In this document: piece by piece, positions 1,355 to 48,074 of the stretch
Layout: the number at the start of each line of letters is the position of its first letter
Numbering within the stretch: the first letter of the stretch is position 1
Assembly (NCBI GenBank): GCA_000621425.1
Contig: JHYJ01000016.1
Location: forward strand, 1 to 64,000
Length of the DNA stretch: 64,000 nt
Direction of reading: 5' to 3'
Source: Lachnospiraceae bacterium AB2028
Lineage (GTDB): Bacteria > Bacillota > Clostridia > Lachnospirales > Lachnospiraceae
The notes under the pieces: model-generated
The model's input: only the letters and a program-made list of their open reading frames with translations
What the model was told of the DNA's origin: nothing
Databases searched by the model: none
Program-made: the position numbers and the translations under genes

Positions 1355-1476
1355 AATTCATCCCAGATTCTATCACACAGCCGGCATTTCTCCAAATCAT
1401 TCAAAATGCACAGGATAATCGAAATCATACACAGCAATTTTCACTGTCATTACTCTAAAAACGCCCAATTCCAGAT

Positions 1477-1505
1477 TTACATAAAACCTTCTCATAGGTT
1501 ATAAT
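1477..1505 (+). promoter_or_regulatory. Promoter that appears to yield a leaderless mRNA
   Basis: TTACAT (1477-1482), 17 bases, then TATAAT (1500-1505). The ATG of the next gene begins only seven bases after the -10 box, and there is no ribosome-binding sequence, so transcription would start at or next to the start codon. Confidence 0.55.
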
Positions 1506-1511
1506 ATCAGT

Positions 1512-2066: not shown

Positions 2067-2079
2067 TACGCCCCTGATT

Positions 2080-2841
2080 CTATGTCTTCTTAAAGAACTG
2101 AAAAGTTCCCCCTATCAGTATCATTGCCCCCACTATGGCATAAAACACTTCTATCCCCGGTTCCAAGAGTACCGATACCCCTTCTGCCATCAGGAAAGCA
2201 CCTGCCGCACTGGTAAAGATTATTATTATCACATCCCCGAATATATTTACGAGAACTGACACCACCACTGCTGCCAGGGACGCTACCACAAGTCCTGTCT
2301 GCAGTACATTAAGGGCCTCGGATATCTGATCGATCACCGGCTGGGCGTACTCTACCGACATCTCCCCGGTGGCAGCTGATATATCACCATGATTGAATAT
2401 CTTTGTTATCCATATCTGCACAAGTGCCCCCGTATCCGGAATATCGCTGATAGCCTTTCTCGCCGTAATAAGGGCAGACCTGGCAAAGCATCCCGCCACC
2501 GCCAGATACGTGCACACTCCTGCCGTCACACACAAGCCTGCCTTGTAGCGCCTAAGTCCTGCATATCCTGCTACAAACGCCACCACTGCTGCCGCCACAT
2601 ACACCCATATGCTGTCCCAGTGTTTTCCTATCTGGAACACAGTACCGCCCGCCAGTACTGCACATGTGCAGAACTGCACTATCTTGCACAGGTTCAGTCC
2701 CTGAAAACAGAGCACGGCCCCGGCCACAAGAAAAAACAGGGCAACCGCCCATCCGGGTATTGCCGCTATATCAGACGATATGCTTTTTTCTGCCTCTGCC
2801 ACTGTCTCCGCAGCCAGAGCCATATAGTATGCTGTCACCAT
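2080..2841 (-). CDS. Polytopic membrane protein of unknown function
   Basis: A 253-residue protein with about six hydrophobic segments (roughly residues 28-48, 54-74, 80-95, 103-120, 183-205 and 210-248). A soluble loop at about 121-182 contains DIPDTGALVQIWITKIFNHGD. No enzymatic or transporter motif is evident. It follows the sensor histidine kinase gene by about 30 bases on the same strand, so it may be the last gene of that operon and could act with the kinase at the membrane; this is inference from spacing only. The ribosome site before the ATG is weak (AAGTGA). Confidence 0.6.
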   Translation of the reverse strand: MVTAYYMALAAETVAEAEKSISSDIAAIPGWAVALFFLVAGAVLCFQGLNLCKIVQFCTCAVLAGGTVFQIGKHWDSIWVYVAAAVVAFVAGYAGLRRYKAGLCVTAGVCTYLAVAGCFARSALITARKAISDIPDTGALVQIWITKIFNHGDISAATGEMSVEYAQPVIDQISEALNVLQTGLVVASLAAVVVSVLVNIFGDVIIIIFTSAAGAFLMAEGVSVLLEPGIEVFYAIVGAMILIGGTFQFFKKT

Positions 2842-2873
2842 TTCACTTATTCAATAATTGCCCACTCACAAAG

Positions 2874-4184
2874 CTACTGCTTGTAAGTCACGGTAAAGAC
2901 TATCTCTTCCCTTTTCCTGTCATAGCTCACCTGAATATTTGCGTTCATCTTCGCGCACATTTCCTCTGCAATGGAAAGCCCTATGCCAAAACCGCTCTTC
3001 TTGCTGTTGTGGGATTCATCCTCCCTGTAAAACCTTTCAAAGAACCTGGTATAGTCCACAGTCGCACCGGCCCTATAGGTATTCTGTACATACAGCTTTG
3101 CGCCCTTCCCCATATAGCCCTTCTCAAGCTTGACCAGGACACGGCCGCCGTCATCACAGTACTTTGATGCATTGTCTAAGAGAATGGATGCCACCTCCTG
3201 CACGCCGTTCTGCATCGCTTTCACTGTAAGCCCCTCTTCTATGCTGGTCTCATATATCTTTCCGGCACCTTCCACTACGGAGGCAAAAGAGTCAGCCTGA
3301 TCCTTAACAATAGCAGATATATCCACTGCAGAAAAAACCTGCACATCCTTTTCATTCAGCTTTGAAAGCACTACCAGGTTTGAAACAAGTTCGTTCATCT
3401 TCTTGATCTGCCGCATATTGGACTCCGTCCATTTTGACTTTCCTGCAGTCATCTCTATCATTTCTGTATTGGCAGAAATAACCGTCAGCGGCGTTTTCAG
3501 TTCATGGCTTGCATTAGTTATGAAACGTTTCTGCCTCTCCTGGTTTTCAATAAAGGGGTCCATAAGCTGCTTTGAAAAATATATAAAGAGCAGGCAGAAT
3601 ACTAACAGTATGACACCGGCCACTATCAGCAAGTAGGAATACATCTGCTGGACTATCAGGTATCTTGACGTATAGTCAACGAAAACATAGAGCCGTCCGC
3701 CGTTTCCCTTTTCCCGGCTGTCATAATAATAGACATTATTATCATGGAAAAATTTCCCTGACTCCCACCTTGTATCCGTAAACAGTTTCCGGAATGATTC
3801 AGCCAGTGACATATCGGCATCATTGGACCTTCCCTCATATATGGAAAAAGCTATATCCGCCGCTTCATTTTCCTCTATGGAAAAAATATGCTCCGTATTG
3901 ACGTGGGTAATATTTCCATCCTTATCTGTTATCACGCTGAAATACCTGGTTTCATACTGCAGTTCTTCCGACAGTCCGCCGGGCATACGCTTGTTTCCCA
4001 CTGCCCATACTCTGTCCGGCGGCATTTCGCCGCCATTTTCAAGCAAAACAGTCAGCATGGTATTAACCTGGGCATCAAAGAAATTGTCCGTCAAGAAAAA
4101 AACCATGGAAAGAACCAGGGTAAGACATATTAGCAACGTAAGCGCCGCCAAGGATACAAATTTTACTCTGAGTTTTGCAAGCAT
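2874..4184 (-). CDS. Sensor histidine kinase
   Basis: A 436-residue two-component kinase. Transmembrane helix 1 is at about residues 10-32, an extracellular sensor region spans about 33-175, and helix 2 is at about 183-205. There is no clear HAMP domain. The dimerisation and phosphoacceptor motif is FITNASHELKTPL, with the H as phosphorylation site. The ATPase region shows an N box LLDNASKYC, an F box FFERFYRED and a G2 box GFGIGLSIAEEM; the usual DxGxG of the G1 box is replaced by NTYRAGA, a common variant. It follows its response regulator by about 90 bases in the same direction, as in most OmpR-type pairs. The signal sensed is unknown. Confidence 0.92.
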   Translation of the reverse strand: MLAKLRVKFVSLAALTLLICLTLVLSMVFFLTDNFFDAQVNTMLTVLLENGGEMPPDRVWAVGNKRMPGGLSEELQYETRYFSVITDKDGNITHVNTEHIFSIEENEAADIAFSIYEGRSNDADMSLAESFRKLFTDTRWESGKFFHDNNVYYYDSREKGNGGRLYVFVDYTSRYLIVQQMYSYLLIVAGVILLVFCLLFIYFSKQLMDPFIENQERQKRFITNASHELKTPLTVISANTEMIEMTAGKSKWTESNMRQIKKMNELVSNLVVLSKLNEKDVQVFSAVDISAIVKDQADSFASVVEGAGKIYETSIEEGLTVKAMQNGVQEVASILLDNASKYCDDGGRVLVKLEKGYMGKGAKLYVQNTYRAGATVDYTRFFERFYREDESHNSKKSGFGIGLSIAEEMCAKMNANIQVSYDRKREEIVFTVTYKQ

Positions 4185-4276
4185 ACCTTACTAAACCCTC
4201 TATGCTGTATCAGAAATAACAGAACAATTTAAATTCTGTCATCACATTATGTACACCGTTTCCAGTACTCCTGCAT

Positions 4277-4948
4277 TCAGTTTATACTTGCCAGACGATA
4301 TGAATGGCCTTTCTCACCTTCAATGGTAGCAGTTGCACCGACTGCCCGGAGCTTGTTCTTAAGGAACGACACATAAAGCCAAACAGCCTCTTCATCCGCA
4401 TTTTCCTCATTCTTCCAGAACTTTTCTATAAGTTCCGCCGTGGAAAAATCCTTTTCCGGGTTGTTCATGAAGAAACCCAGCATGTGGCTCTCTTTAGCCG
4501 GCAGCCTTATGGAATTCTGTCCGGTAAGCTCCTCCTTCTCGGTATCCAGGGTGATGTTGTAAACGGATATGACCTTCTGTGTAGTGGTTCTGCTTCTTCT
4601 TGTCATCGCCCTTACCCTGGCCAATAATTCTCCCACGGCAAAAGGCTTAGTAAGATAATCATCAGCACCCGCATCCAAGCCATTTATCCTGTCATCAACT
4701 TCTGTCTTTGCTGTAAGAAAAAGCACAGGTGTATCATTACCGCTCTCCCTAAGTTTCTTTACAGCTGTTATCCCATCCATCACAGGCATCATTATGTCAG
4801 ACACAATGGCCGCATATTCATTTGCGCTGGCCTTTTCAAGCATCTGCGCGCCATTCTCCGTCACATCCACGGTATAGCCGTTAGCGGCAAGCACAGCCTC
4901 TATGACATCCTTAAGGTCTTCTTCATCTTCTGCTACAAGTATGTTCAT
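4277..4948 (-). CDS. OmpR-family response regulator
   Basis: An N-terminal receiver domain has the acidic pair in LVAEDEEDL, the phosphoacceptor Asp in AAIVSDIMMPVMDG, the conserved Thr (VLFLTAKTE) and Lys (DDYLTKPFAVGELLARV). A C-terminal winged helix at about residues 130-223 carries the recognition features LPAKESHMLGFFM and AVWLYVSFLKNKLRAVGA. The listed ATG follows AGAGG by six bases and is preferred over a GTG one codon upstream. It is the partner of the histidine kinase encoded next. The surface-glycan genes and the (p)ppGpp synthetase lie directly upstream on the same strand, suggesting coordinated envelope and stress control. Confidence 0.93.
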   Translation of the reverse strand: MNILVAEDEEDLKDVIEAVLAANGYTVDVTENGAQMLEKASANEYAAIVSDIMMPVMDGITAVKKLRESGNDTPVLFLTAKTEVDDRINGLDAGADDYLTKPFAVGELLARVRAMTRRSRTTTQKVISVYNITLDTEKEELTGQNSIRLPAKESHMLGFFMNNPEKDFSTAELIEKFWKNEENADEEAVWLYVSFLKNKLRAVGATATIEGEKGHSYRLASIN

Positions 4949-4994
4949 CACTACCTCTTTCTTTCAAACAGTTCTCTTCTTTATTTCTGATATT

Positions 4995-5594
4995 TCAGCT
5001 GCCCCTGATCATATCCTTTAGTGTCTGCATCGAGATATCGCAGCTTGCCAGTTCCCCGGCACAGCGTTTTAGCTCTTCTGCTATTATTGCGCTGTTTTTT
5101 ATGTCTTTTTTATATCTAAGTTCATGTTCAAGTGCCGCCCAGGTATCCATTGCTATTGTACGCAGCTGGACCTCTATGTAATATTTTCCGGGATCATTGC
5201 CTGCCGCATCGGGCACATCGCTTTCTACCTCAAGCAACATATGATAGCTCCTGTAACCATTAGGTTTAGTGGCGCTTATATAGTCCTTTTCCTTCACAAT
5301 GGTTATTCCATCCATCTCCCGGATCTTATTTACATTCTTCATTATGTCATCGATGAAAAGGCATATCACCCTGACGCCTATGGCATCATGCACTACCTTA
5401 AGCGCATTATATGCCGTCAGCTCCACCCCTATCTTGCTGCATTTTTCCTGCATGCTCTCAACTGACTTAATGCGGCTGGACAGATGCTCATATAGTTTCT
5501 CTCCACCGTCATCCTGCGCTGTTGCTTCATACCGCCTGACAAAATCATCCGCGATCTTTGTCAGGTCGTCTATATAATCTGCATATTCCTTCAT
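4995..5594 (-). CDS. Small alarmone (p)ppGpp synthetase, RelQ/YjbM type
   Basis: A single-domain GTP pyrophosphokinase (about 199 residues from the preferred start) that transfers pyrophosphate from ATP to GDP or GTP, making the stringent-response alarmone. The synthetase core shows the metal-site region HDAIGVRVICLFIDDI, the substrate loop KPNGYRSYHMLLEV, and VQLRTIAMDTWAALEHELRYK. There is no HD hydrolase domain and no TGS/ACT part, as expected for small alarmone synthetases. The start MKEYADY is preferred because GAGAGG precedes it by ten bases; the longer reading with MQSFVLRGYRK lacks such a site. It is packed between the WecG-type gene and the two-component system. Confidence 0.88.
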   Translation of the reverse strand: MKEYADYIDDLTKIADDFVRRYEATAQDDGGEKLYEHLSSRIKSVESMQEKCSKIGVELTAYNALKVVHDAIGVRVICLFIDDIMKNVNKIREMDGITIVKEKDYISATKPNGYRSYHMLLEVESDVPDAAGNDPGKYYIEVQLRTIAMDTWAALEHELRYKKDIKNSAIIAEELKRCAGELASCDISMQTLKDMIRGS

Positions 5595-5628
5595 TTTCCT
5601 GTAACCTCTCAATACAAAACTTTGCAAT

Positions 5629-6405
5629 TCAGTATCTTCCCTGCAGCATCAGCATAATAAATCTCGTATTCGTCCTTAGATATCTTGAAAAAAGCCGTTT
5701 CGGATCCTGCATCAACCTGTAGCACCATTCAAGTCCGGTCTTCTGCATCCACAAAGGTGCCCTTTTCACGGTTCCCGCATGGAAATCAAATCCTGCTCCT
5801 ACGCCCAGCATCAGAGCATCAATCTTTCCTGCGTGATCTGCCATCCACTTCTCCTGTTTTGGTGCACCTAAGCCTATCCAGACAAGATCTGCGCCGGAAT
5901 CGTTTATCATTTTTATGACATCACTGTCTTCGTCTGCCGTAAGTTCTCTGAAAGGTGGCGAATACTTCCCGCAGATATTTATTCCCGGATACTCCTTTTC
6001 CAGTTTCTCAGTTAGAGCTGTCAGTGTCGCCTCCGTGGCACCATAGAAAAAATGTTTTACTTTTCCATCCCTGCTGTTTTCAAATGCAAGCCTCATAAAA
6101 TCAGGACCTGCCACTCGCTTAGTGCTGTATGACCTTCCGGTTCTCAGTGCTTTGACCCTTGCCGCAAATGCAACCGGCATTCCATCCGGAAATGTAAATG
6201 CTGCACCGTTCAGTACCTTCCTGTATTCCGTATCCTCATGAGCTTCCACTGTGGTATGCACATTGGTAAAGCAGATATAACGTCCCTTTAGGTTCCTGTA
6301 CTTCTTTAGTACAACCCTTACTGCCGTCCCTATATCGCAGAAGGTAAACTTAACCCCCATTACCTTTATATGTACTGCCATATTTTTTGTTTCTTCTTTT
6401 CCCAT
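5629..6405 (-). CDS. WecG/TagA/CpsF-family glycosyltransferase
   Basis: Transfers an activated hexosamine or mannosamine sugar to a lipid-linked acceptor in teichoic-acid or capsule synthesis; the exact donor here is unknown. Family marks are VMGVKFTFCDI, YICFTNVHTTVEA, TFPDGMPVAFAARV, the segment RVAGPDFMRLAFE, FYGATEATLTALTEKL, and the closing WIGLGAPKQEKWMADH with GVGAGFDFHAGTVKRAP. The length is normal for the family. The start is uncertain: a TTG twelve bases upstream or an ATG 24 bases downstream are alternatives, and none has a strong ribosome site. It lies immediately after manA, with near overlap. Confidence 0.88.
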   Translation of the reverse strand: MGKEETKNMAVHIKVMGVKFTFCDIGTAVRVVLKKYRNLKGRYICFTNVHTTVEAHEDTEYRKVLNGAAFTFPDGMPVAFAARVKALRTGRSYSTKRVAGPDFMRLAFENSRDGKVKHFFYGATEATLTALTEKLEKEYPGINICGKYSPPFRELTADEDSDVIKMINDSGADLVWIGLGAPKQEKWMADHAGKIDALMLGVGAGFDFHAGTVKRAPLWMQKTGLEWCYRLMQDPKRLFSRYLRTNTRFIMLMLQGRY

Positions 6406-6410
6406 TTCAA

Positions 6411-7436
6411 TCAACAACTGATTTTAAGCAACGTTGAGTTTCCATGCAGCAACATCTCATCCGAATCAGCCGGAATAAAGATGCAGTCTCCTTTGAAAAA
6501 CGGAAGAACCTCTTTACCATCGCAACTATCCGTAATGATGCCACAGCCATCTACGCATAACAGCACAGCAAAAGAATTTGCTTCTGTTTTTATCCCTGCC
6601 ATCTGCTTTATGCGCTCAGTATTCAGCATCATGCGTTCCATCTGAAAATACTTGCATCTCCCCAAAAGTTCCGTTGCATAGCCAGGCCTGAATTTCAACA
6701 CCCGCATGGGCTGCTTAGGTTCCGATGCTCCAGACATGTTCATAACATCCAATGCCTTGTCTATATGGAGTTCTCTTTTATTTCCGTTTTTATCTACCCT
6801 GTCATAATCATACAGCCTGTAAGTCAGGTTAGAATTCTCCTGCACCTCGGCAATCACCGCGCCACTTCCTATGGCATGTACGGTTCCTGCCTCTATGAAA
6901 AAAACATCATCCTTGTGTACTTTTACTTTCTGCAGGTACCTGGTAAGCGTACCATCGTTTACAGCTTTTTTCAGCTTATCTGCTGTAATGGAATGCCTAA
7001 AACCATAAATAAGGGATGTATCCGGAGCGGCATCTATCACATACCACATCTCCGTCTTCCCTCTCTGCCCATTCTCGTGTTCCATAGCATACTCATCAGT
7101 TGGGTGCACCTGCACTGACAAGTCACTGTCCGCATCAATAAATTTCACCAGTATAGGCAGATCATCGTATCCATTCTCTCTTGGATGCGTGCCGAGGTAT
7201 TCCGGATGTTCCTTAAGGACATCAGAAAGCAGCCTGCCCTTGTACTCCCCGCTGGCTACCATGCTCACACCGTCAGGATGTGTACTACACTCCCATGTTT
7301 CAGCTAAAGGCGTAGTATCCGTATCTTTACAGAAATCATCCTTTAGCCTCCTGCCGCCCCAGAGATAATCCTTCTCTGCCGGCTTTAAAAGAAACGGCAT
7401 TACAGATGCATTATTTTCAGCATCAACTCTACTCAT
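6411..7436 (-). CDS. manA: Mannose-6-phosphate isomerase, class I
   Basis: Zinc enzyme that interconverts fructose-6-phosphate and mannose-6-phosphate, feeding GDP-mannose synthesis. The class I marks are KPAEKDYLWGGRRLKDDF near the N-terminus, the zinc and active-site region LVKFIDADSDLSVQVHPTD, KTEMWYVIDAAPDTSLIYGF, and DDVFFIEAGTVHAIGSGAVIAE with the second metal-binding part. At 341 residues it is a typical short bacterial form. The ATG has a GAGGATAAG ribosome site at a rather long distance. It sits between manC and the WecG-type transferase in one transcription unit, so it most likely serves glycan synthesis. Confidence 0.93.
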   Translation of the reverse strand: MSRVDAENNASVMPFLLKPAEKDYLWGGRRLKDDFCKDTDTTPLAETWECSTHPDGVSMVASGEYKGRLLSDVLKEHPEYLGTHPRENGYDDLPILVKFIDADSDLSVQVHPTDEYAMEHENGQRGKTEMWYVIDAAPDTSLIYGFRHSITADKLKKAVNDGTLTRYLQKVKVHKDDVFFIEAGTVHAIGSGAVIAEVQENSNLTYRLYDYDRVDKNGNKRELHIDKALDVMNMSGASEPKQPMRVLKFRPGYATELLGRCKYFQMERMMLNTERIKQMAGIKTEANSFAVLLCVDGCGIITDSCDGKEVLPFFKGDCIFIPADSDEMLLHGNSTLLKISC

Positions 7437-7524
7437 ATATCGGTTAACTTATCCTCATCATTTAATCCGGACCGTTTCATGTTTCATGATTGCGCAGCCC
7501 GTCCATGCTTTCACAATCGCAGTA

Positions 7525-8844
7525 TCAGATATCCAGCTTATACTTGGTCTTGTCATGTACGCTTATGGCATCACCTATCTGGACCTCTATAAGACACAGT
7601 TCCGTCTCAGCAACCACCGTATGCCTGCATCCTGCAGCCATTGTCACCACATCACCTGTTGACACAGGCTGCTTCATTCCATCCACGATTACAGTACCCC
7701 TTCCGGATACTATACTCCATATCTCATCCCTGTGGGCATGTGAATGATAATTCATTGACCTTCCTGCAAGAACGGTTATCTTATTTGTCATGCTGCCCGG
7801 TCCTACATCCAGCACACGGAAACTTCCCCAGGATTTATCAGCAAACATAACCTGCTGGTCGATCTTATCAACCACCGGCTTATTATGGCTCGAGGCTTCC
7901 TTATCTGAAACAAAAACCCCCTCCGCCGAAGCTGCCACCACCACATTTTTAAGTCCCATACATACAACAGGCACATCCAGTTCATTCAGCACATTTACAT
8001 TTTCACAGCTGCTGTCCACCACAGCCTTGCCTGTCGCAGAATCATCCATGGCCTCCGTCAAAGTATTCCATGTCCCCAGATCCTTCCATGGTCCACTGAA
8101 TTCCAAGACACAGACCTTTTCTTCAGTCTCAAGTATCTCCTTATCGAAACTTATTGCATTAAGGCTCTCATACTTTTCATACAGGTCTTCATAGTCCGTA
8201 AATTCAATCTTTTCGTGAGCCCTTCTCAATATATAGCTCATCTTGAAAACAAATACACCTGCATTCCACAAAGCGCCCTGTGCGATGTATTCCTTTGCCT
8301 TTTCCTCGCTGGGCTTTTCGTAGCATACACCATAAAACCTGTCCGCATTCTTTTCCTTAGGCAAAATATATCCGTACTTTTCCGCGGGATATGTAGGCTT
8401 TGCCCCAATAACACATATATCGGCATCATTTTCAGAAAGGGCAAGTTTTTCCAGATTTTTCAATGCCTCAAAATAGTCATCCTCTACATAGGGATCCACC
8501 GGACATACCATCAGCAACTGATCCTCATCCACATGCTTTATCTCATGCAGAAAAACAGCCGCAAGGACAATGGCCGGGAATGTATCCCTTCTGCAAGGCT
8601 CCACAGACAGGGTAATATTTTCGCCTATCTGACTATGAAGCGCAGCCACCTGGGCACGAGATGTGGCAACAGTCACATCCGCATCCTTATCAGCTGAAAC
8701 TATTCCCCGGTACATTCTCTGTACCATGGATTCCACTGTTCCGTCTTCCCTTTTTAAAATCTTTATGAACTGCTTTGATCTGTTATCATTTGACAGCGGC
8801 CAAAGCCTTTTGCCTGAACCGCCGGAAAGAAGTATCACATTCAT
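7525..8844 (-). CDS. manC: Mannose-1-phosphate guanylyltransferase
   Basis: Makes GDP-mannose from mannose-1-phosphate and GTP. The N-terminal nucleotidyltransferase domain carries the signature LSGGSGKRLWPLSNDNRSKQ, VCPVDPYVEDDYFE, GYILPKEK, EKPSEEKA and WNAGVFVFKMSYIL, followed by FSGPWKDLGTWNTL. The last 110 residues form a cupin domain (MNYHSHAHRDEIWSIVSGRG) like the isomerase half of bifunctional ManC/AlgA enzymes; the separate manA makes a second isomerase activity unnecessary. GGGGG lies nine bases before the ATG. Phosphomannomutase, needed between ManA and ManC, is not found in this window. Confidence 0.93.
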   Translation of the reverse strand: MNVILLSGGSGKRLWPLSNDNRSKQFIKILKREDGTVESMVQRMYRGIVSADKDADVTVATSRAQVAALHSQIGENITLSVEPCRRDTFPAIVLAAVFLHEIKHVDEDQLLMVCPVDPYVEDDYFEALKNLEKLALSENDADICVIGAKPTYPAEKYGYILPKEKNADRFYGVCYEKPSEEKAKEYIAQGALWNAGVFVFKMSYILRRAHEKIEFTDYEDLYEKYESLNAISFDKEILETEEKVCVLEFSGPWKDLGTWNTLTEAMDDSATGKAVVDSSCENVNVLNELDVPVVCMGLKNVVVAASAEGVFVSDKEASSHNKPVVDKIDQQVMFADKSWGSFRVLDVGPGSMTNKITVLAGRSMNYHSHAHRDEIWSIVSGRGTVIVDGMKQPVSTGDVVTMAAGCRHTVVAETELCLIEVQIGDAISVHDKTKYKLDI

Positions 8845-8871
8845 TATTGTTAGCCCCCATTATCTCATTAC

Positions 8872-11887: not shown

Positions 11888-11931
11888 GTATGCCGCATTT
11901 AATCCGTAGGTTCACACGCCGTGCCCACAGA

Positions 11932-12462
11932 TCATGACAGCAGTTCCTGGAACGCCTCCGCAGAAACTTCACCCTTGGCATACCCGCACAGCGGACCGGC
12001 TGTAGTCTTAAGGACAGCAGCACTTGTTTCTATTGCATCATAAACCTCGTTTATAACCCAGTCCTTTTCGCCTATCTTCCCGACCGGAAGTACTATACGG
12101 TACATAAGACTTATACGCGAGGGGACTTTATCCTCTGCATCATCTTCCGGTTCTTCATTAAACACTGCGTATCCTCCTACAGGAAGTATAGTGTTCAAAA
12201 GCGCTATCCCTGCACACAGGTTCGCATGCTCTGCAGAACTATAACCTGTTATATCCGCTACTTCCCATTGAAGTACGATCAGTCCGTTATCAAAATCATC
12301 ACCGCCGTATGTCGCATAAAAGATATCACCGTATATATCGGAATCCGTTACCGGTGCTGAAAAGAGAACCGTGAGTACAGGTCTGTCCTCTTCTATTATC
12401 CTTGCAGGAATCTTATTGCCATCCAGTTTCGCCTTTAATCCATTTAATACTTCTTCAACCAT
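11932..12462 (-). CDS. YbjN-like small protein, last gene of the 933-residue-protein operon
   Basis: A 176-residue soluble protein without signal peptide. Alternating beta segments (ARIIEEDRPVLTVLFSA, NGLIVLQWEVADI), a helix with HANLCAGIALLNTILPVGGYAVF and a closing helix give the pattern of the YbjN/type III secretion chaperone-like fold. A second protein of similar pattern (157 residues) is encoded at the other end of the same operon. Proteins of this fold often bind a partner polypeptide, so it may chaperone the large protein encoded just upstream, 40 bases away. This is inference; I do not recognise a specific family member. Confidence 0.6.
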   Translation of the reverse strand: MVEEVLNGLKAKLDGNKIPARIIEEDRPVLTVLFSAPVTDSDIYGDIFYATYGGDDFDNGLIVLQWEVADITGYSSAEHANLCAGIALLNTILPVGGYAVFNEEPEDDAEDKVPSRISLMYRIVLPVGKIGEKDWVINEVYDAIETSAAVLKTTAGPLCGYAKGEVSAEAFQELLS

Positions 12463-12502
12463 ATCCTTATTTTCTCCCAGTCATTGCTTATTGTTTACGG
12501 GT

Positions 12503-15304
12503 TCACCCACCTAACTTTGCTGCTATCGACTTTGCAGTAGGACGAATTTTTTCTATAGATTTTTTATCTGTACCCCTTGGAAATTTCACACGAAGTCCCA
12601 TTCCCTTTACAAGCTGTACACAAGCTTTTGAAACATCATGGGCATTTTTGTCATCCTCTGTTATCAGATCATCCTGTTCGTCATAGAAAAGTTTTCTGAA
12701 CAGGAATTCCGCATATTTCCCGGCTATATGTTTAAAGAATGTCCTGAATGTTGTAAAACCAAGCTCCGCTGCCATATGGTTCATAAGGTTCTTCTTTAAT
12801 TCCTTCATCTTTTTCTTATTGTTCAAAAGATTATCCTTGGCCGCCTTATCCATGTTACCCAAAAGATCCTCGATATTATTTAAGTTCAGGAATTCCTCAG
12901 CGGTCCGTTCCTTAGAACGTTCGCTAAGCAGATATTCCGTCATCTTGCCGGCCAACGACAGTACAACGGACGCCCCACCCCATATAAGTGAAAATGCAGG
13001 ACCCGCAATCAATGCTGTAAATCCGCCGATATTGTTCACCGTGGAAAAAGTGGTGCTTACAGCCTGTTTTGTTTTATTCCTTCCATCAAGCTTGATTATG
13101 CCATCCATGTATGTAGCATCATCCCTGACTATATTAAGGCTGCTAATCTGTTTTTTCGCCTGATGGCGATGATACAGATGCTTGCCCTGAACCGCATAAT
13201 CAGCAGCATTCATGGCAAGTCCTCCCACAGATACGGCTTTAGAGGCGAAGGAAATTTTGCCCGATATGTCCTTCACAAGCTCAGGAGTGTTTTCGACAAG
13301 CGCCTTTGCTGTGTCAGCTGCATAGCGCATACTGGCCAGTCCAATACCGGTACTAACGACCGATGCGCCCAGCCCATACAGATAATTGGTTCCTGTATAA
13401 ACCCTGTCTAACACTGACAGATTACCATTAAACATAGCCGTAACAGTCTTTTTGATACCTTTCAGGCTTCCAAGAAGCCCCACTGCTCCGCTTACTGCTG
13501 ATGCCGCCCCTGAAATATAATTTGCCTTTTCAACCATGCCTAAAAGATCATGGTTTCCTATCATAGCGGTCTGTCCAACAGCCATGGCATTTTCTGCCAT
13601 TGCCTGTATTTCAGATTTATATATCGAAGGTATCGTTGAAAGCTTGGAAGTCACGATAGCCGTCTGCTTTACTGCGTATTCCGTATTCTCTTCGAGTTCT
13701 AGCGCAACATCCCCTACGCTCTCAGCAGAATAATTCGTTGCATATAAAAGCTCCTGCTGCCTTTCCTGTAATACTCTGTCCTTGCCAAACAGCTGATCCA
13801 GCTTCCCTATCGCTAACTGTTTCTTCTCCTCCGCAGTCTCTTTTCTCTCTTGCTTTTTAATCCACGCGCCGTCGCTGGTCTTCTGGGCTTTGACGTATTC
13901 CTCGACGGCCTTTATTGCTTCATCAAGGAGCCGGTCACGTTCTTTAGCCGCCGTATAAACAGAGCCTGCAATTTTCTTTACGCCCTCATCCGCAATATTC
14001 TCAATCGCCTGACTGATATCATTCTGGTCATCCTTACCATTCTTTTCAGACTTTTCACGCTCAGCAAACTTAGCAAAATCATCTATTGCCTGTTTGACAT
14101 CAGGACGCGTAACTACGCTGAGCGCGGTTTCCAGCATCCCCCAGTGATGGCGCATCACACCGTCCTTCCCAAGCTTTTCCCATAGGCGGAAAGGAACACG
14201 GTACATCTTGAAGCTGATCTTTGACACATTCGGAATATAAGTTGTCTGTGACAGTCCTATATCCGAGATGTCCGGATTTGCCAAATGCCCCGTCTCTACA
14301 AGCCTGTATACAAACAGCCTTTCCCTTGCCGAAAGAGCCAATATCCGATTTATGAAAGGAAGGCGTTTGGGAGAATTTATTCCAAGTCCCATAAGCCAGT
14401 CATCGGTACGGCCCAGTGCCTCCGCCTGCTCTGCCGACAGTCCGCTGTCATACTGTTTCAAATTATACTCATGCGGCTGTTCTTCCGCCTGCTGCCCTGC
14501 GCTATGCTTATCGAGCTTTAATGCTCTCTTTTTTGCCCTGTCTAAAACACTATCCGCTTCATTCCCCAAAATACTCGAATCGACAAGCAGGCCATCCCCT
14601 TCATCAAGGAATGAAAGTTCAGCCATATCCTGCGAGTTGTTTTCGAAATGTTCCCTCAGGGTATCATAACGTCTTAAATATTCATCTATTTCGAGCCCTC
14701 TCTTGACATTAAAATTCTTTGAACAATATATAGTCTTATATACCTCAACCTCTGTCTCAAAGGTTTTGGCATAGTTATACAGCATTTTTGCCTTTTCCTT
14801 TCTTGAAAGGAACTTATCCTTGGCAAGTGCTTTCTTGAGTGACCAGAATTTTTCAAGCTTTGCCTTCGTTTCCTTGGCTACTTTTTTTCTTTCCACATCA
14901 TTCAGGTATCCAGTTACCATCTTGCGAAGGCCATCTTTATCCTCTTCCAGTTCTGCATTTACCGTCTTACTTTTCTTTATTTTCTCTATCAGGCGTTTTC
15001 TTGCTATCTTTGCAGATGCTGACAGCGCATGAAACTGGTATGTATCCCTGATCGGATCCAGTATTTCATCTCTCTGATCCCGAATTTGCATATCATCCTG
15101 ATCATTGTGAATAATTATGTTGTTGTTGATCAGATCGATTTCATTTTCTTTGTCAATTTCGATTTCAGAATATTCATTGTCAGATTCCTTCATACCGTTC
15201 AATTTTATTTTGTCGGTATTCAGATCCTTTAAGTTGTCTTTCTTTTCATCATTGATAAGAATGTCCTTATTCAGTTCATTTGTTTTAAACTTACCGGATT
15301 CCAT
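12503..15304 (-). CDS. Large protein of unknown function with glycine/alanine-rich hydrophobic segments
   Basis: I do not recognise this 933-residue protein. The first 80 residues are Asn, Asp, Ile, Lys and Glu-rich low complexity (IDLINNNIIIHNDQDD), encoded by more AT-rich DNA than the rest. Residues about 90-470 are charged and helical, with probable coiled coils. Around 595-615 (AVSGAVGLLGSL), 635-660 (YGLGASVVSTGIGLA) and 755-790 (LIAGPAFSLIWGGASVVL) are hydrophobic, Gly/Ala-rich stretches like those of membrane-inserting or tail-measure-type proteins. The end is helical with FTTFRTFFKHIAGKYAEFLF. No signal peptide is seen. AAGGAAG precedes the ATG. It is flanked by YbjN-like proteins and follows a GNAT gene by 49 bases. 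A pore-forming, scaffold or secreted-substrate role is possible but unproven. Confidence 0.6.
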   Translation of the reverse strand: MESGKFKTNELNKDILINDEKKDNLKDLNTDKIKLNGMKESDNEYSEIEIDKENEIDLINNNIIIHNDQDDMQIRDQRDEILDPIRDTYQFHALSASAKIARKRLIEKIKKSKTVNAELEEDKDGLRKMVTGYLNDVERKKVAKETKAKLEKFWSLKKALAKDKFLSRKEKAKMLYNYAKTFETEVEVYKTIYCSKNFNVKRGLEIDEYLRRYDTLREHFENNSQDMAELSFLDEGDGLLVDSSILGNEADSVLDRAKKRALKLDKHSAGQQAEEQPHEYNLKQYDSGLSAEQAEALGRTDDWLMGLGINSPKRLPFINRILALSARERLFVYRLVETGHLANPDISDIGLSQTTYIPNVSKISFKMYRVPFRLWEKLGKDGVMRHHWGMLETALSVVTRPDVKQAIDDFAKFAEREKSEKNGKDDQNDISQAIENIADEGVKKIAGSVYTAAKERDRLLDEAIKAVEEYVKAQKTSDGAWIKKQERKETAEEKKQLAIGKLDQLFGKDRVLQERQQELLYATNYSAESVGDVALELEENTEYAVKQTAIVTSKLSTIPSIYKSEIQAMAENAMAVGQTAMIGNHDLLGMVEKANYISGAASAVSGAVGLLGSLKGIKKTVTAMFNGNLSVLDRVYTGTNYLYGLGASVVSTGIGLASMRYAADTAKALVENTPELVKDISGKISFASKAVSVGGLAMNAADYAVQGKHLYHRHQAKKQISSLNIVRDDATYMDGIIKLDGRNKTKQAVSTTFSTVNNIGGFTALIAGPAFSLIWGGASVVLSLAGKMTEYLLSERSKERTAEEFLNLNNIEDLLGNMDKAAKDNLLNNKKKMKELKKNLMNHMAAELGFTTFRTFFKHIAGKYAEFLFRKLFYDEQDDLITEDDKNAHDVSKACVQLVKGMGLRVKFPRGTDKKSIEKIRPTAKSIAAKLGG

Positions 15305-23153: not shown

Positions 23154-25640
23154 TCACTGCATATTATATTTTAAGCGCACATCATCCGACGGTTCATAGC
23201 CATCCAGATACTCATCCGCACGGCCTAAAAGTTCTTCATAGCTTACATAAGGCACACTGTAATAATCACCGATGGAACTGTATGGCTCAAGTATAAGTTC
23301 CCCGTTTTTCTCATCCGCGATCCTTGCCTGCATCCGGCAGAATACCTCAAACTTATCATTTAACAGGTAGCCTGAATAATCGGTATCAATAACATAGCAC
23401 CCCATCATTTCAGACCTGTAGAATTTTGTGATGCCAAAGTCCCAACTGTCAATCATGAACGCACCCTGAACTTCCATCGTGTCCCTTTCATAAATCTTTA
23501 TGATATTATCAGGATAAAGTGCTGCTATATATTTTTTATCTTCGGAATATTTCGCATAATCCGGCAGCGCACCTCCGTTTCCGAAAGCATTATTAATTTC
23601 TTCATAGGCCGACTCATCCTGCTCAGAAGAACATTCATACTCATATAACACGCTCTCTGCGCCTTCGGCCATTTTTTCTGAATACCTTACCACAAAGTTA
23701 TTGCGGTAACCGACCAGATACAGGCTGTTGCCCCGTATCTGCGCCCAGTATGTTTCATTCTCCGGTTTCCTTGCAAAGAACCGGTCAGTCTCGTCCCACC
23801 CGTTAAAGTTTCCGTCATTGGAAAAAAGCTTTCCTTTAGATGTCAGATAGTAATATATGTCTCCATCTGTCCATGAACACGTGATCTCGCCTTCGCTGGG
23901 AATCGTCTCAACTACACTCCCCGTATAGCGGTCAATTATCGTAACAAGGTCCAGGCCATTTATATACACGCATTCACCGGCAGCCTCTATATTATATGGT
24001 GTATACCCTTCTATGCTAATATTCCAGGCGTTTTCCCCTGTAAGGTAGTCAGTGCAGCTTACTGTTGTGCAGTTTTTTCCTTCTTCCTCGTCATATGATA
24101 CGACCGATGTAAACAGTTCGCCGTCCTGTATTTCCATCGCAGCGCCGCCATTTTCTGAAGCGCTTGCAATGACCCTTCCCGACTCCGTCTCCGCAATAAT
24201 CATGCAATAATCTTCATTAGTGTTTATATTGCAAAGAAAATTTTTGCCGTCAAAATCCATCTCGAAAATATAGCCATCCTCTATTCCGAATAGTTCTTTC
24301 GCATCTATCTCATATAAAAGTTCTCCCTTACTGTCAAACGCGTACAGTATGCAGTCATAAAAACAAAACATCAGTTTTCCGTCCGGAGAACTGAAAAAAT
24401 CTGTATACCCCTTTATGCCTTCAATGCTTTTCTTTTCATCAGAAGATATTTCCGTAAAATAAACATCTTTCCCGTCAATGACCACAAGTCCCTCCGTTCC
24501 GCAAAAGCCTGCAGAAAAAATGTCGTCATCCAGGTATTCTCCTGGTTCACTGCTTCTATTTATGGTTCTTACGAGAAGACCTGATTCCGTATCAAAAATC
24601 CGGATTTCCTCATCATTATTTATCATGATGTACCTGTCATCCTGCGTCACGGAAAATTCCATCATTTCCGAACCGCCTTCATAGATTCTGTCAGGCGCAT
24701 ACTTTTCAGGCACAGTGTAGATATTCAAAGCATCGAATAAAACGCGCAGCGCCGCAGCGTTTGGCGCATCATCCACACTGTCAGGAAGAACATTTCTTGC
24801 CTCATACACTGCATCAAGGCTCCGTCCCATACCGTATAATGAGTCCGCATTATCCGCCACCGTTCCTACATATTTATCATGCAGTTCTGCATACTGTTCC
24901 GAGATCAGCGCATTCTTATTCTCCAGTTCAGCATTCTGTTCTGAAATAACCGCATTCTGCCGCCCTATCCTTATCAGCATAACCGTGGCAAAAACCGCAA
25001 ATAAAAGAACAGCCGCACCGATGCTTCCGAAAACCGCAGCCATTCTTTTAATCTTCTGCTCGCGGTGACGCTGCTTTAAGTCATCATAATTCAGCCCGAA
25101 TATTGCGGCACAGAGCTTAATGACCGCAATATCCATAGCCTTCAGGATTTCCTTCTTATTGCCACCCCTGGTATCAGCCGCCAGGGGTTCCAGCTCTTTT
25201 TCTGTTTTAACCGTATTGCCATTCTCATCTGTACTTATGACTTCTTCATAAGTAAGAATCCTTGGAAATGAATTCTGCGGTTCATCCTCCGCAAGCACCA
25301 CAAGAATATGGTCCCTGTCATGGGTCTGAAGGAACACTTCTATTTCCTTCATGCACCACCTTGATTCAAGATACCTTGGGGTACATATGGTGATAAGAAA
25401 GTCCGAATTAGCTAAAGCTGCATTGATTGGTTCAGACAGGTTTTCAGACAATGGCAGCTCGTCCACATCCCTGAAAACCCTTTCAATCTTTGTCTTTCCG
25501 TTTTTCATTTTTCCCCTGAGGGATTTCGGAAGCCTGAAGGACTCCAGCTTAGTATGGATATTTTTTGCCACGAAGGCATCAAGTTCACTATGACGGTAAC
25601 TTATAAACGCATCATAGTGCACATCTTTCAGATCACTCAA
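23154..25640 (-). CDS. TIR domain, transmembrane, beta-propeller protein
   Basis: An 828-residue protein. Residues about 7-135 form a TIR domain (YDAFISYRHSELD, VFRDVDELP, LITICTPRYLESRWCMKEI). Glu99 in the WCxxE position matches the catalytic glutamate of NAD-cleaving TIR domains such as SARM1. A single transmembrane helix at 201-225 is followed by a coiled coil with repeated ISEQNAELENKNALISEQ. The rest (about 290-790) is a run of WD/PQQ-like beta strands, probably a propeller outside the cell. It may sense an outside signal and activate the inner TIR domain. The start is a TTG six bases after AGGGGAG. It follows a lipoprotein and an amidase gene. Confidence 0.88.
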   Translation of the reverse strand: MSDLKDVHYDAFISYRHSELDAFVAKNIHTKLESFRLPKSLRGKMKNGKTKIERVFRDVDELPLSENLSEPINAALANSDFLITICTPRYLESRWCMKEIEVFLQTHDRDHILVVLAEDEPQNSFPRILTYEEVISTDENGNTVKTEKELEPLAADTRGGNKKEILKAMDIAVIKLCAAIFGLNYDDLKQRHREQKIKRMAAVFGSIGAAVLLFAVFATVMLIRIGRQNAVISEQNAELENKNALISEQYAELHDKYVGTVADNADSLYGMGRSLDAVYEARNVLPDSVDDAPNAAALRVLFDALNIYTVPEKYAPDRIYEGGSEMMEFSVTQDDRYIMINNDEEIRIFDTESGLLVRTINRSSEPGEYLDDDIFSAGFCGTEGLVVIDGKDVYFTEISSDEKKSIEGIKGYTDFFSSPDGKLMFCFYDCILYAFDSKGELLYEIDAKELFGIEDGYIFEMDFDGKNFLCNINTNEDYCMIIAETESGRVIASASENGGAAMEIQDGELFTSVVSYDEEEGKNCTTVSCTDYLTGENAWNISIEGYTPYNIEAAGECVYINGLDLVTIIDRYTGSVVETIPSEGEITCSWTDGDIYYYLTSKGKLFSNDGNFNGWDETDRFFARKPENETYWAQIRGNSLYLVGYRNNFVVRYSEKMAEGAESVLYEYECSSEQDESAYEEINNAFGNGGALPDYAKYSEDKKYIAALYPDNIIKIYERDTMEVQGAFMIDSWDFGITKFYRSEMMGCYVIDTDYSGYLLNDKFEVFCRMQARIADEKNGELILEPYSSIGDYYSVPYVSYEELLGRADEYLDGYEPSDDVRLKYNMQ

Positions 25641-44539: not shown

Positions 44540-45388
44540 ATGAAAGAAAAACTTTCACACAAATTCATTATAGCAATAGCAGCGTCACTCCTGACACTTC
44601 TTTTGTGTGCCTGCGGCAAGACCACCTGCGATTTCTGCGGCCAGCAGAAAGTCTGCAAGGAATTCGATGTCATGGGCACCACCAGACATATCTGCAATGA
44701 CTGTCTCAATAACACCGCCTCTGCCGTTTCCGGAAACGTGGCAAGACAGTATGCGGAACTGTTTGAGAACGGCACACTTGAATATCCGGCTGATTCTCCC
44801 CTGGCAGACCATTCAGAAGATGAGCAGACAGAAGGAGAAGAAAGTGCAGAAACACCTGAGCCTGTAGAAGTATATACACCCGTAGATGATTCTTCTGATA
44901 ATAATGAACAGAATGACGAACAGGCAGACCCGGGCCAGACCGACAGCAGCGCTGAACCTACCGAAGACACTCCGGTTGATACCTCCGGCCTCACCAACGA
45001 TGCACTTATCTCTGACCTGAACCGTAAGCTCCAGGCCGACTCAATGATACTGTACGCAGACACAAATGATACAAACATTTACCACCTGTATGAAAACGGC
45101 GGAGACACCGGCATAGTATTCACTGTATCCCCCGGCACATCAGGGGATAAGATTTCTATTTGCCAGTATTCGCCTGACTCTTCCCAGGCCTATGTAAAAG
45201 CAGTCATCCGCTCGATCCTTACATATGTTGACAGCAATGACTATGACGGCCTGGGACATGATATATACAATGGCACGATCCAGAACGGAAATTACACACA
45301 GAGCGGCATAAGTTTCTACTCTTCCATAGGCACCGCAGATGAAATTGAAAGAGGACTGCCTTCCAGCACCTTTGAAATAGTCCCATAG
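44540..45388 (+). CDS. Lipoprotein with an extracellular four-cysteine motif
   Basis: A 282-residue predicted lipoprotein: basic MKEKLSHK, a hydrophobic core, and a lipobox ending LLCAC. Just after it is a zinc-finger-like set of cysteines, CDFCGQQKVC and HICNDCL (about residues 30-57), unusual in an exported protein. An acidic Glu/Asp/Ser/Thr/Pro linker (about 75-150) leads to a C-terminal domain of about 120 residues with strands and ILYADTNDTNIYHLYENGG. I do not recognise that domain. The gene starts the plus-strand island and lies 250 bases upstream of the AAA+-like gene. Confidence 0.72.
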   Translation: MKEKLSHKFIIAIAASLLTLLLCACGKTTCDFCGQQKVCKEFDVMGTTRHICNDCLNNTASAVSGNVARQYAELFENGTLEYPADSPLADHSEDEQTEGEESAETPEPVEVYTPVDDSSDNNEQNDEQADPGQTDSSAEPTEDTPVDTSGLTNDALISDLNRKLQADSMILYADTNDTNIYHLYENGGDTGIVFTVSPGTSGDKISICQYSPDSSQAYVKAVIRSILTYVDSNDYDGLGHDIYNGTIQNGNYTQSGISFYSSIGTADEIERGLPSSTFEIVP

Positions 45389-45638: not shown

Positions 45639-46502
45639 ATGGCAGAAAACCGGTACTACAATGAAATCATGGGCCTCAGCGGCATGGATGATTTCAAAGA
45701 TGTTGTGGAACAGTGGCACACTCTCAGTGAAAACATCCGTAAATACAATGTAAAAAGACCTCCCGTTCTCCCTAGCCTTCTGTGGGCTTCAGACAGCGGC
45801 ATGGATCTTGCAAGACTCATGAACATGCTCACAGGTTTCGTTTATGAAGAAAAAAATCTCATTGATTTTTATGGATCGGTTCAGACACTTGATTACTATA
45901 TGGAATATCCTTCCGAGGCGTCACAGTTCCATGAACTGGAGAAGATAATGGAAAAGATCCGCAGCGCTGCCGGATTCCGTTCTGAATATCACGGTCTTAT
46001 GTCTATCGATGTAAGCGAATGGATAGGCCACTTCAATGAAGAGAACTTCATCGACGTACTTAAGTACCTCCAGAGTATCAATTCTGACATACTCTATGTA
46101 TTCCAGGTACCTAATTACAATCCCCAGGCTATAGAGCAGCTCACCCAGATACTGGCTCTGTTCTTCCATATACAGCCTATCACCTTAAAGCTTCCGGATG
46201 CAGATGCCCTTGGTTTCTATACTAAGAACGAGCTTCTTAAGTATGGTCTTGCTCTTGATCCTGAAGCTGAGCAGCTCATATACGCATCCGTTGCAAGACT
46301 TAAGGAAGACCAGTATTTTGCTGGATACACTCTTCTCGACAGAATGGCATCGGATATCGCATATTCGCTCTACAGCACCACCCCTCCCAGTAACGGAATG
46401 GTGACCAGGAGCATGATAAGTGCATTCGGGCCCGACGGCATGTATGTCACCGAAATGATCCAGAACAATGCACGCGTATTCACATCCCAGTTCAGTTACT
46501 AA
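45639..46502 (+). CDS. Degenerate AAA+ ATPase-like protein
   Basis: I propose that this 287-residue protein is a pseudo-AAA+ ATPase, by pattern only. Where Walker A is expected it has PSLLWASDSGMDLARLM (residues 45-61; compare GxPGTGKTxxARLL), with no P-loop Gly-Lys-Thr. In the Walker B place it has GLMSIDVSEWI (119-129), with Val where the catalytic Glu belongs. A sensor-1-like strand ILYVFQVPNYNP follows. The end (LLKYGLALDPEAEQLIYASVARLKE and TLLDRMASDIAYSLY) matches the helical lid of CbxX/SpoVK-type AAA+ proteins. GAAAGGCGG precedes the ATG. The VirD4-like gene follows after 22 bases, so the two are surely co-transcribed. Confidence 0.65.
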   Translation: MAENRYYNEIMGLSGMDDFKDVVEQWHTLSENIRKYNVKRPPVLPSLLWASDSGMDLARLMNMLTGFVYEEKNLIDFYGSVQTLDYYMEYPSEASQFHELEKIMEKIRSAAGFRSEYHGLMSIDVSEWIGHFNEENFIDVLKYLQSINSDILYVFQVPNYNPQAIEQLTQILALFFHIQPITLKLPDADALGFYTKNELLKYGLALDPEAEQLIYASVARLKEDQYFAGYTLLDRMASDIAYSLYSTTPPSNGMVTRSMISAFGPDGMYVTEMIQNNARVFTSQFSY

Positions 46503-46524
46503 AGATAAGGAGGCCCGTTAAAAA

Positions 46525-48021
46525 ATGGCAAGTAATCAGATAAAAAACACAAGATATAAAGCAAACAACGGTCAGACCAGATGGGCAACCGTTGAAGAGA
46601 TGCAGCGTTCCGCCACAAAGGTGGATCTTCATGCACCCTCTTATCCTACCGCAGGTATCCCCGTAATGTCAGACGGAAATACCGCTTACCTTGACGGTAC
46701 CGATACGCATACACTTATCTTCGGTGCTACAGGTTCCAAGAAGACCCGTATCTTCTGTATGCCTACCATCAACATGATGATACGTGCAGGCGAGTCTTTC
46801 ATCGTAACCGACCCTAAGGCTGAGCTTTATGTCCGCACCGGCGGATTTGCAAAGGAGCGCGGCTACAAGCTGGTAGTTCTTAATTTCCGTGATATCGGTT
46901 ACGGAGACATGTGGGATCCCCTGGCACTTCCTTTCGAGTACTACACCACAGGCCGTAAGGACGAAGCCAACAACCTTATAAACGACCTTGCTGCTACACT
47001 TTCAGCAAGACAGAAGGAAAACTCAACCGATCTGCTCTATCCTCTGATGGCTGAGACGTTGCTTACAGCTAATATGTATCTTCTTTTCGAAGCTGCAGCA
47101 AATGAAGGCGCAGTTAACATGCGAAGCCTCACAGCCCTCTGCTCACAGTCCTCACTCGAGTCACTGAGAACACTGGCAGGTAAGATGAGCTCACAGAATA
47201 CGATCGGTATGCTCTTCAAGGGTACACTTCTTGGTGAGAATGAAAAGACAATTTCTTCCATCATGTCGGTGCTTTACGGAATGGTTTCCATCTTCAACCT
47301 GAACAAGAGACTTACCGACATGCTCTGCCACAATACTTTCGATATGAGAATGTTCGGACATGAGAAGACAGCGGTTTACATCATCGTACCCGATGAAAAA
47401 ACAACCTGTCATTTCCTGGTAACAATGTTCATCAAGCAGGTATACGAAATCCTGATCGGTGAAGCTCAGAGACAGCCGACACTTTCACTGCCTGTCCGTG
47501 TTAATTTCGTATTGGACGAGTTCTGTAATATCCCGAAGATACCTGATATGCCTTCCATGATATCTGCAGGACGAAGCCGAAACATGAGATTCTACCTTAT
47601 TGTACAGTCCATACACCAGTTGAAAGGACGTTATGGTGAAGACGCTGATACGATCAAGGGTAACTGCGATAACTGGATATTCCTCACCTCCCGTGAGCGA
47701 GACCTCTTAAATGAAATGAGTTTCCTCTGCGGTGAGATCGATGCATGGGGACCGGGCGGAGCCGAAAAGAGACGGCTGATATCCATTTCCGAGCTGCAGC
47801 GTTTCAATAAGCAGAAGGGTGAAGTACTTATACTCCATGGCCGTGAATATCCTTTCATCACATACATGGCAGATATCGACCAGTATCCTGATTTCGCAAA
47901 CTGGAGGGTTGTTCCCATCGCGCCGATCGAGATACCGCACGTACCTACCTTCGACGTAATCAAGTTCACAACCAAGAACGCATTCCTTCCGGACGGTGTT
48001 CCCTTCAACGAGCCCGACTAA
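46525..48021 (+). CDS. Soluble VirD4/TraG-like ATPase with variant Walker A
   Basis: A 498-residue relative of type IV coupling proteins, the hexameric ATPases that feed DNA or protein into a secretion channel. Visible are the P-loop region HTLIFGATGSKKTRIFC (residues 62-78), FIVTDPKAELY, VLNFRDIGYGDMWDPL, Walker B VNFVLDEFCNIP (D331, E332), the motif LIVQSIHQLKGRYG, and WIFLTSRE. Two oddities: the usual Gly before the catalytic Lys is Lys72 (GATGSKKT), and there is no N-terminal membrane anchor. No relaxase, VirB4, VirB6 or other transfer genes are nearby, so it is not an evident conjugative element. AAGGAGG precedes the ATG. A strong terminator follows. Confidence 0.82.
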   Translation: MASNQIKNTRYKANNGQTRWATVEEMQRSATKVDLHAPSYPTAGIPVMSDGNTAYLDGTDTHTLIFGATGSKKTRIFCMPTINMMIRAGESFIVTDPKAELYVRTGGFAKERGYKLVVLNFRDIGYGDMWDPLALPFEYYTTGRKDEANNLINDLAATLSARQKENSTDLLYPLMAETLLTANMYLLFEAAANEGAVNMRSLTALCSQSSLESLRTLAGKMSSQNTIGMLFKGTLLGENEKTISSIMSVLYGMVSIFNLNKRLTDMLCHNTFDMRMFGHEKTAVYIIVPDEKTTCHFLVTMFIKQVYEILIGEAQRQPTLSLPVRVNFVLDEFCNIPKIPDMPSMISAGRSRNMRFYLIVQSIHQLKGRYGEDADTIKGNCDNWIFLTSRERDLLNEMSFLCGEIDAWGPGGAEKRRLISISELQRFNKQKGEVLILHGREYPFITYMADIDQYPDFANWRVVPIAPIEIPHVPTFDVIKFTTKNAFLPDGVPFNEPD

Positions 48022-48044
48022 GGATACGAAAAATAAAAATGTTA

Positions 48045-48074
48045 AAACTGCGCATCAGCCGATGCGCAGTTTTT
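48045..48074 (+). terminator. Intrinsic terminator of the AAA+-like/VirD4-like operon
   Basis: ACTGCGCATC pairs perfectly with GATGCGCAGT around an AGCC loop and is followed by TTTTTATTT. The A-run on the 5' side could also let it work in the opposite direction. Confidence 0.92.

Follow-up and report, generated by a model that had tools for sequence, protein, structure and literature searches.

The operon and its two products

The DNA analysed here, referred to as the window, comprises positions 1 to 64,000 (64,000 nucleotides) of contig JHYJ01000016.1 from Lachnospiraceae bacterium AB2028 (GenBank assembly GCA_000621425.1). It contains two adjacent plus-strand genes encoding a pseudo-AAA+ protein of 287 residues (P1, 45639..46502) and an anchorless VirD4-like ATPase of 498 residues (P2, 46525..48021). 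The two open reading frames (ORFs) are 22 nt apart, as stated in a preliminary description made from the sequence alone, and a ribosome-binding site for P2 (AAGGAGG, 46507..46513, plus strand) can be read between them. P2 has the fold of the type IV coupling proteins (T4CPs), and ClpP genes located beside relatives of the pair suggest a type of machine, not described before, that unfolds or degrades proteins.

A 13-pair stem at 48044..48073 (plus strand), probably a bidirectional terminator, follows P2; the terminator scan scored it on the minus strand, and the plus-strand reading continues into TTTTTATTTG. The preliminary description had placed the operon under one promoter and one strong terminator. 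The stem after P2 agrees with the latter, but terminator-like sites as a class are not in excess (3, compared to 2.6 in shuffled sequences). The promoter could not be substantiated, as the scan returned 7 sigma-70-like sites against a mean of 6.9 in shuffles and none between 45389 and 45638.

The predicted structure of P1 (AlphaFold; predicted local distance difference test score, pLDDT, 91.2) is an AAA+ fold with a lid, as had been anticipated. CbbX is the top match in Foldseek and the closest in a second structural alignment (Z 15.9), followed by HslU (14.9), clamp-loader subunits (13.9) and ClpX (13.4), and the leading matches include several ATPases from ATP-dependent proteases. At the sequence level, P1 has no match in Pfam and none with E<1 in a sequence search of the PDB. 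Its weak match to DNA polymerase III delta (15.5 bits, far under the cut-off of 80) is compatible with an AAA+ fold. Tandem AAA proteins contain a homologue of P1 as their middle domain and also carry a CbxX/SpoVK-like C-terminal AAA domain; the CbxX, SpoVK and EccA models match this C-terminal domain in one tandem relative, all below cut-off. P1 thus resembles the CbbX/SpoVK/EccA group (PF00004 and PF17866) in its closest fold and in having relatives within tandem AAA proteins, but differs from it in consisting of a degenerate AAA domain alone.

Both catalytic motifs of P1 are altered in the way the preliminary description had read them. The P-loop position (residues 50–57, 45786..45809) reads ASDSGMDL, while the Walker B position reads SIDVSEW, with D124-V125 at 46008..46013. 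Of 30 aligned family members, six retain the GxGK[ST] signature in the P-loop and none has the canonical hhhDE form of Walker B. These alignments give P1 the appearance of an ancient pseudo-ATPase in which the P-loop, too, is being lost. Numerous unresolved nodes and the long branches of the P2 tree (L125, L128 to L131; L and G numbers are our labels for loci and genomes) leave the number of independent losses of the P1 P-loop indefinite.

P2 matches Pfam family PF02534 (DNA transfer by type IV secretion systems; E 9.3e-39) and scores 267.7 bits on NF045973, the VirD4-like conjugal transfer protein model of the CD1115 family (cut-off 250). Its predicted structure has a pLDDT of 83, with weak regions before residue 20 and across residues 380–450 (∼58–69). 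The fold is that of a coupling protein, with Cagbeta as the best match (Z 24.6, root-mean-square deviation 4.7, 410 aligned residues), then TrwB (23.4) and DotL (20.0); VirB4 (19.4), DndH (18.8), HerA (15.9) and FtsK (11.8) are further matches. The similarity to VirD4, TrwB and Cagbeta extends over residues 14–471 (Z 23–25) and includes the Walker B motif. P2 differs from these proteins in lacking the N-terminal membrane anchor, in having lysine at position 6 of the P-loop and in being paired with P1; it also differs in context, with no conjugation genes among ten neighbours and with ClpP beside some of its relatives. By Kyte-Doolittle hydropathy P2 has neither an anchor nor a membrane helix. 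Its maximal mean over 19 residues is 1.27, compared to 1.98 and 1.87 in two long VirD4 proteins of the same genome. The VirD4/TraG motifs and the absence of membrane helices noted at the outset are therefore borne out by the translation, the Pfam match and hydropathy.

The Walker B motif of P2 (LDEF, residues 330–333, 47512..47523) is intact, while Walker A (residues 67–74, 46723..46746) reads GATGSKKT rather than the consensus GxxxxGK[ST]. The suggestion that the glycine-to-lysine change is typical of a subfamily holds well: Lys-Lys occupies these positions in 68 of the 70 copies in which the loop can be read, and the other two (GSTGSGKS) come from a single gene that was fetched twice and that alone has a standard P-loop. 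The sample comprised 72 distinct copies, including truncated duplicates of one gene, with the loop unreadable in 2. In the sister group of short VirD4-like proteins, Gly, Ser or Ala precedes the catalytic lysine (Ser or Ala in L138, L140 and L144). Hence, this position is variable in the superfamily and nearly fixed as lysine in P2. The fixed lysine probably tunes nucleotide binding without abolishing it, judging from the aligned sequences, since Walker B and two conserved arginines are invariant.

The absence of both Walker motifs from P1, together with the replacement of the glycine before the catalytic lysine in nearly all P2 proteins, would also fit an operon encoding a structural or regulatory complex of two catalytically dead pseudo-ATPases. 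We regard such a scaffold as improbable, as all of 30 divergent P2 rows share K73, D331, E332, R350 and R352, a constraint that a dead site would not need, and as the Ser and Ala found in the sister group show that other residues occur at the substituted position. The earlier picture of one dead and one unusual ATPase is thus supported at the level of sequence.

Conservation of the gene pair and its surroundings

The P1-P2 pair is passed on as a unit. Of 35 genomes of the genus, 32 carry P2 (84–100% identity) and one more has a 79-residue fragment of it; P1 lies upstream of P2 in 29 of 30 genus loci, the remaining locus ending at a contig edge. Gene order and the P2 P-loop change, which the preliminary description had proposed to compare across relatives, are conserved. 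Relatives at 47–60% identity occur in Lachnospiraceae, Oscillospiraceae, Defluviitaleaceae and unclassified Clostridia. P1 diverges faster than P2 (53–74% versus 82–96% identity in the more distant members of the genus). Both genes are under strong purifying selection, with ratios of nonsynonymous to synonymous substitution rates (dN/dS) of 0.015–0.096 for P1 and 0.008–0.042 for P2 in five comparisons each (for P1, dS is saturated in some). The altered motifs are not due to chance, as S71-K72-K73 of P2 is invariant across 16 aligned genus members and both genes are under this selection.

The name assigned by NCBI, conjugal transfer protein, implies that P2 is left over from a conjugative element, either domesticated or in decay. 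In favour of such a remnant, P2 exceeds the NF045973 cut-off, and distant VirD4 proteins are present in 2,205 plasmid records. A long VirD4 of the same genome, however, scores 549.5 bits on this model. No match to P1 was found in plasmid or phage records, and every match to P2 there is below 60% identity; viral contigs contain five distant VirD4 relatives (26–38% identity), none above 300 bits with the P2 model. Debris of an integrative conjugative element or plasmid was rejected on these searches, together with the genus-wide occurrence of P2 and the constant position of P1, and an origin as a decaying remnant is very improbable and largely refuted. Given the near genus-wide distribution, the purifying selection, the lack of close plasmid or phage matches and the absence of conjugation genes nearby, P1-P2 is a chromosomal operon shared by almost all of the genus rather than mobile debris, which supports, from sequence, the earlier view of a chromosomal and non-conjugative system. 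None of the three findings that the preliminary description had named as speaking against it was obtained: P1 has a predicted AAA+ structure, the pair does not occur as debris of integrated conjugative elements, and a standard P-loop is confined to one P2 gene.

None of ten neighbours in the window is a conjugation or secretion protein by Pfam. As the preliminary description had remarked, no relaxase or VirB4-type gene is found among them, nor in the ORF list of the window by reading. The adjoining genes are mainly on the minus strand, as it had also noted, but a small lipoprotein-like gene at 44540–45388 is on the plus strand. This gene encodes CxxC pairs and has no Pfam match. In the genus and at its edge, 31 named loci were compared, many of them on short contigs; a lipoprotein-like gene of this kind is upstream or close by in 20, a dynamin-like gene in 20 and a phosphorylase-family gene in 18, while the metH-to-YolD genes left of the operon in the window are nearby in 3. 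Further away, the window encodes an 828-residue protein (23154–25640) with a TIR-like start followed by a membrane segment and a repeat-like region, by reading.

ClpP genes and C-terminal tails among relatives

A link between short VirD4-like ATPases and ClpP is apparent across 60 genomes. The preliminary description, which had suggested a machine for translocation or assembly, did not mention ClpP; the link points towards the unfolding or degradation of proteins. A ClpP gene lies within 3 kb of 23 of 32 short VirD4-like ORFs, while none of 34 long ORFs has one at this distance (Fisher P 8e-11). In all 23 cases both genes are on the same strand (checked by eye). The short class was defined as 390–559 residues, length standing in for the anchor, with one row per ORF and second pieces of the same ORF dropped. 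Kept outside this comparison were 10 fragments below 390 residues (1 near ClpP) and 3 P2 fragments (none near). Removal of the one P1-P2 type gene in the short class (G045) leaves 22 of 31 with ClpP within 3 kb. An anchor-like stretch before the P-loop was detected by hydropathy in 0 of 8 short and in 3 of 3 long proteins. Wider searches at family and class level scored few candidates per genome in a sample of genomes, and the tallies of those searches are not taken as frequencies.

The genome of the window itself has six ClpP genes. Apart from P2, it encodes four short VirD4-like ATPases (L138, L139, L140 and L141), which are likewise unanchored, and each of them has one of the ClpP genes within 0.7 kb on the same strand. 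At L140, a tandem AAA protein with an IGF tail is encoded upstream in the same direction. Six large AAA-related proteins of this genome (623–954 residues) end in [ILV]GF (L167 5286–7250, L168 5226–7097, L169 4605–6665, L170 3787–5829, L171 3742–6606 and L172 5131–7134), and a further one (L173, 4269–6062) lacks this ending. Elsewhere, at L126, a ClpP gene (11905–12480) lies 12 nt downstream of a second short VirD4-like gene, of the GK type (12493–13749); a KK-type P2 is encoded in the same region of that genome. Based on the co-localization of short ORFs with ClpP and on the missing anchors, some of the soluble VirD4-like ATPases found in Clostridia constitute, in our view, a family linked to ClpP, whose members an automatic model labels as conjugal transfer proteins.

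ClpP paralogs are also found next to the pair itself. In five loci (L066, L077, L128, L130 and L131) a ClpP gene directly follows P2 on the same strand, within 24 nt by the listed start codons, and tandem AAA proteins adjoin ClpP in three others (L097, L132 and L136). The invariant columns of the ClpP alignment hold a Ser and a His that we take to be catalytic. The possibility that these neighbours are phage prohead proteases was rejected: on the head-maturation model (cut-off 120), four paralogs (three of the sister group, at L138, L139 and L141, and the one at L066) reach 80 to 94 bits, compared to 163 to 291 bits on the best ordinary ClpP model for each.

A second feature shared with Clp systems is found at the C-terminus. 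ClpX and ClpC dock into hydrophobic pockets of ClpP by means of an IGF/IGL loop (PMC9823225). Of 29 distinct P1 proteins outside the genus, 25 end in [IL]GF or a close variant, as do 13 of 15 tandem AAA proteins; the background is 60 of 1,692 ORFs, overlapping frames included. In all classes the tail was counted as [ILVMF]G[FL] within the last 16 residues; the 29 outside proteins include L095 (a shortened tandem-type protein without a tail) and L091, whose ending, SAGFRPGF, was scored as negative. The equivalent region of the window's P1 is encoded at 46452..46499 (plus strand).

A putative two-ring machine

Building on the observed genes, predicted folds, motifs, conservation and neighbourhood statistics, we infer hexamers, ring stacking, docking and the type of substrate as follows. 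The operon would encode a soluble, two-ring, ATP-driven machine for unfolding or remodelling proteins, descended from a Clp-type proteolytic system. P2 would be its active, hexameric motor, and P1 a non-hydrolysing docking ring or adaptor. In the ancestral arrangement the IGF tail may have seated the ring on ClpP, with P2 feeding substrates into the protease. In the genus of the window, the pair most likely acts as a ClpP-independent unfoldase or remodelling factor, because its members have neither the tail nor a linked ClpP, or would dock through another contact. We assign this reading, with ClpP dependence ancestral and probably lost here, a probability of about 0.45.

Several observations weigh against it. 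The ClpP-adjacent short VirD4 proteins are a sister group, scoring 66 to 176 bits on the P2 model, and, except for G045, do not belong to P1-P2 pairs. In the wider family, a nearby ClpP gene was listed for at least 15 of the 44 short-frame VirD4-like rows; these short frames include conjugation-type proteins and have no long-frame control. At least 12 of these rows are outside the window's genome, in ten further genomes, and such pairs count in favour of the link. For the pair itself, ClpP is adjacent in just 5 of 35 loci outside or next to the genus (among them L062 and L078, which belong in or next to it), and 30 of 35 are without it; among the five P1 proteins linked to ClpP, those of L130 and L131 lack the tail. 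Within the genus, ClpP is found within 3 kb of none of 32 P2 genes and the tail in none of 23 P1 proteins, so that a ClpP role of the window's pair is deduced from relatives. On the P2 tree, the numbers of label changes for an intact P1 loop and for ClpP adjacency were as low in 156 and 179 of 500 shuffles, respectively, which means that neither label clusters better than in many shuffles. Among the matches listed, the open-licence PMC literature contains no report of ClpP and a VirD4-type ATPase as partners. The neighbours are also varied. A TPR-like protein is near some P1-P2 loci (e.g. L070), and a Card1-like CARF-nuclease gene lies downstream of the pair in L067 (4537–5817; PADLOC CARF4 PDDEXK, E 1.9e-24). 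CARF-nuclease-like genes, recognised by similar starts, follow it in L076 (11904–13151) and L084 (11557–12792), and P2 of L080 (9977–11995) has a long RyR-like C-terminal extension, by eye.

The number of ClpP genes per genome is relevant to how docking might occur. Exactly one ClpP (E≤1e-25) is encoded in 20 of 28 P1-P2 genomes outside the genus and none in two, a count that covers 22 of the 26 loci L060–L085 plus six other genomes. Several genus genomes (e.g. G002, G004, G015, G028 and G029) have a single ClpP hit; if ClpP plays a part there, the pair would have to contact this one protein in some other way. Outside the genus, where P1 usually keeps its tail, docking on the general ClpP is possible.

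The CARF, TPR and RyR context also fits a conflict or stress module controlled by nucleotides. P1-P2 could accordingly be a HerA-like motor for DNA handling or defence, with a varying effector (ClpP, CARF-nuclease, RyR or TIR) and control by a nucleotide signal. HerA motor genes are encoded with genes for effector enzymes, and the P2 fold also matches HerA, SIR2-HerA and DUF4297-HerA (Z ∼12–16), as well as DndH. The arrangement shared with SIR2-HerA and DUF4297-HerA is that of a soluble motor of the VirD4/HerA superfamily encoded with an effector enzyme gene; the enzyme beside P1-P2 relatives, however, is ClpP, and P2 is T4CP-like in sequence and fold. The T4CPs match P2 clearly better (Z 20–25), P2 is near-universal and slow-evolving in the genus, unlike a typical defence island, and PADLOC gave no convincing match (none for P1, a weak mad8 match with E 0.0013 for P2). 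For these reasons, a HerA-like role appears unlikely.

At one locus, L082, the pair adjoins two WXG100-like genes (by reading) and a gene for an EssC-like FHA-FtsK/SpoIIIE protein (1383–8866). P2 might be a coupling ATPase that recruits substrates for a secretion system encoded elsewhere, such as type VII; P1 would then be a chaperone resembling EccA or CbxX. The sub-cut-off matches of the CbxX, SpoVK and EccA models to the tandem relative agree with this, as does the presence of Cagbeta and DotL, which serve protein-secreting type IV secretion systems, among the top solved structures matching P2. P2 lacks a membrane anchor, however, and the Pfam search of the window's neighbours returned no secretion protein; such genes were noticed at L082 alone, the other loci not having been searched for them. 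We consider this secretion role rather improbable.

The two-ring unfoldase proposed here shares with ClpX/ClpC-ClpP and HslUV the fold of P1 (Z 13–15 to HslU and ClpX), the IGF-like ends of P1 relatives and the ClpP genes beside some of them. It would differ in that the motor is a T4CP-fold ring rather than an Hsp100 protein, and P1 itself lacks catalytic motifs. The IGF motif of P1 relatives forms a C-terminal tail and not a loop, and the window's P1 is without it. ClpI, described as a distinct class of Clp unfoldases found bioinformatically in Actinomycetota (PMC10149685), is likewise non-standard; it is reported as one of the Hsp100/Clp unfoldases and not as a VirD4-fold protein.

More broadly, membrane-free hexameric motors of the conjugation-type VirD4 fold may serve as unfoldases for dedicated ClpP peptidases in Clostridia, with P1 as a pseudo-AAA+ ring that docks the motor on ClpP by its IGF tail, and with the pair converted into an unfoldase working without ClpP in the genus of the window. 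This extension is tentative, and we hold it to be possible rather than probable. To our knowledge, the established ATP-dependent cytosolic proteases of bacteria are driven by AAA+ rings. If the extension is correct, a second motor lineage for ATP-dependent proteolysis would exist beside the AAA+ ATPases, and the association of a motor of the T4CP/HerA lineage with ClpP would be a new way of powering proteolysis, masked by the name under which these proteins are annotated. It would also help account for the six ClpP genes in the genome of the window, give P1 a testable role and open the lysine-for-glycine P-loop of P2 to enzymology.

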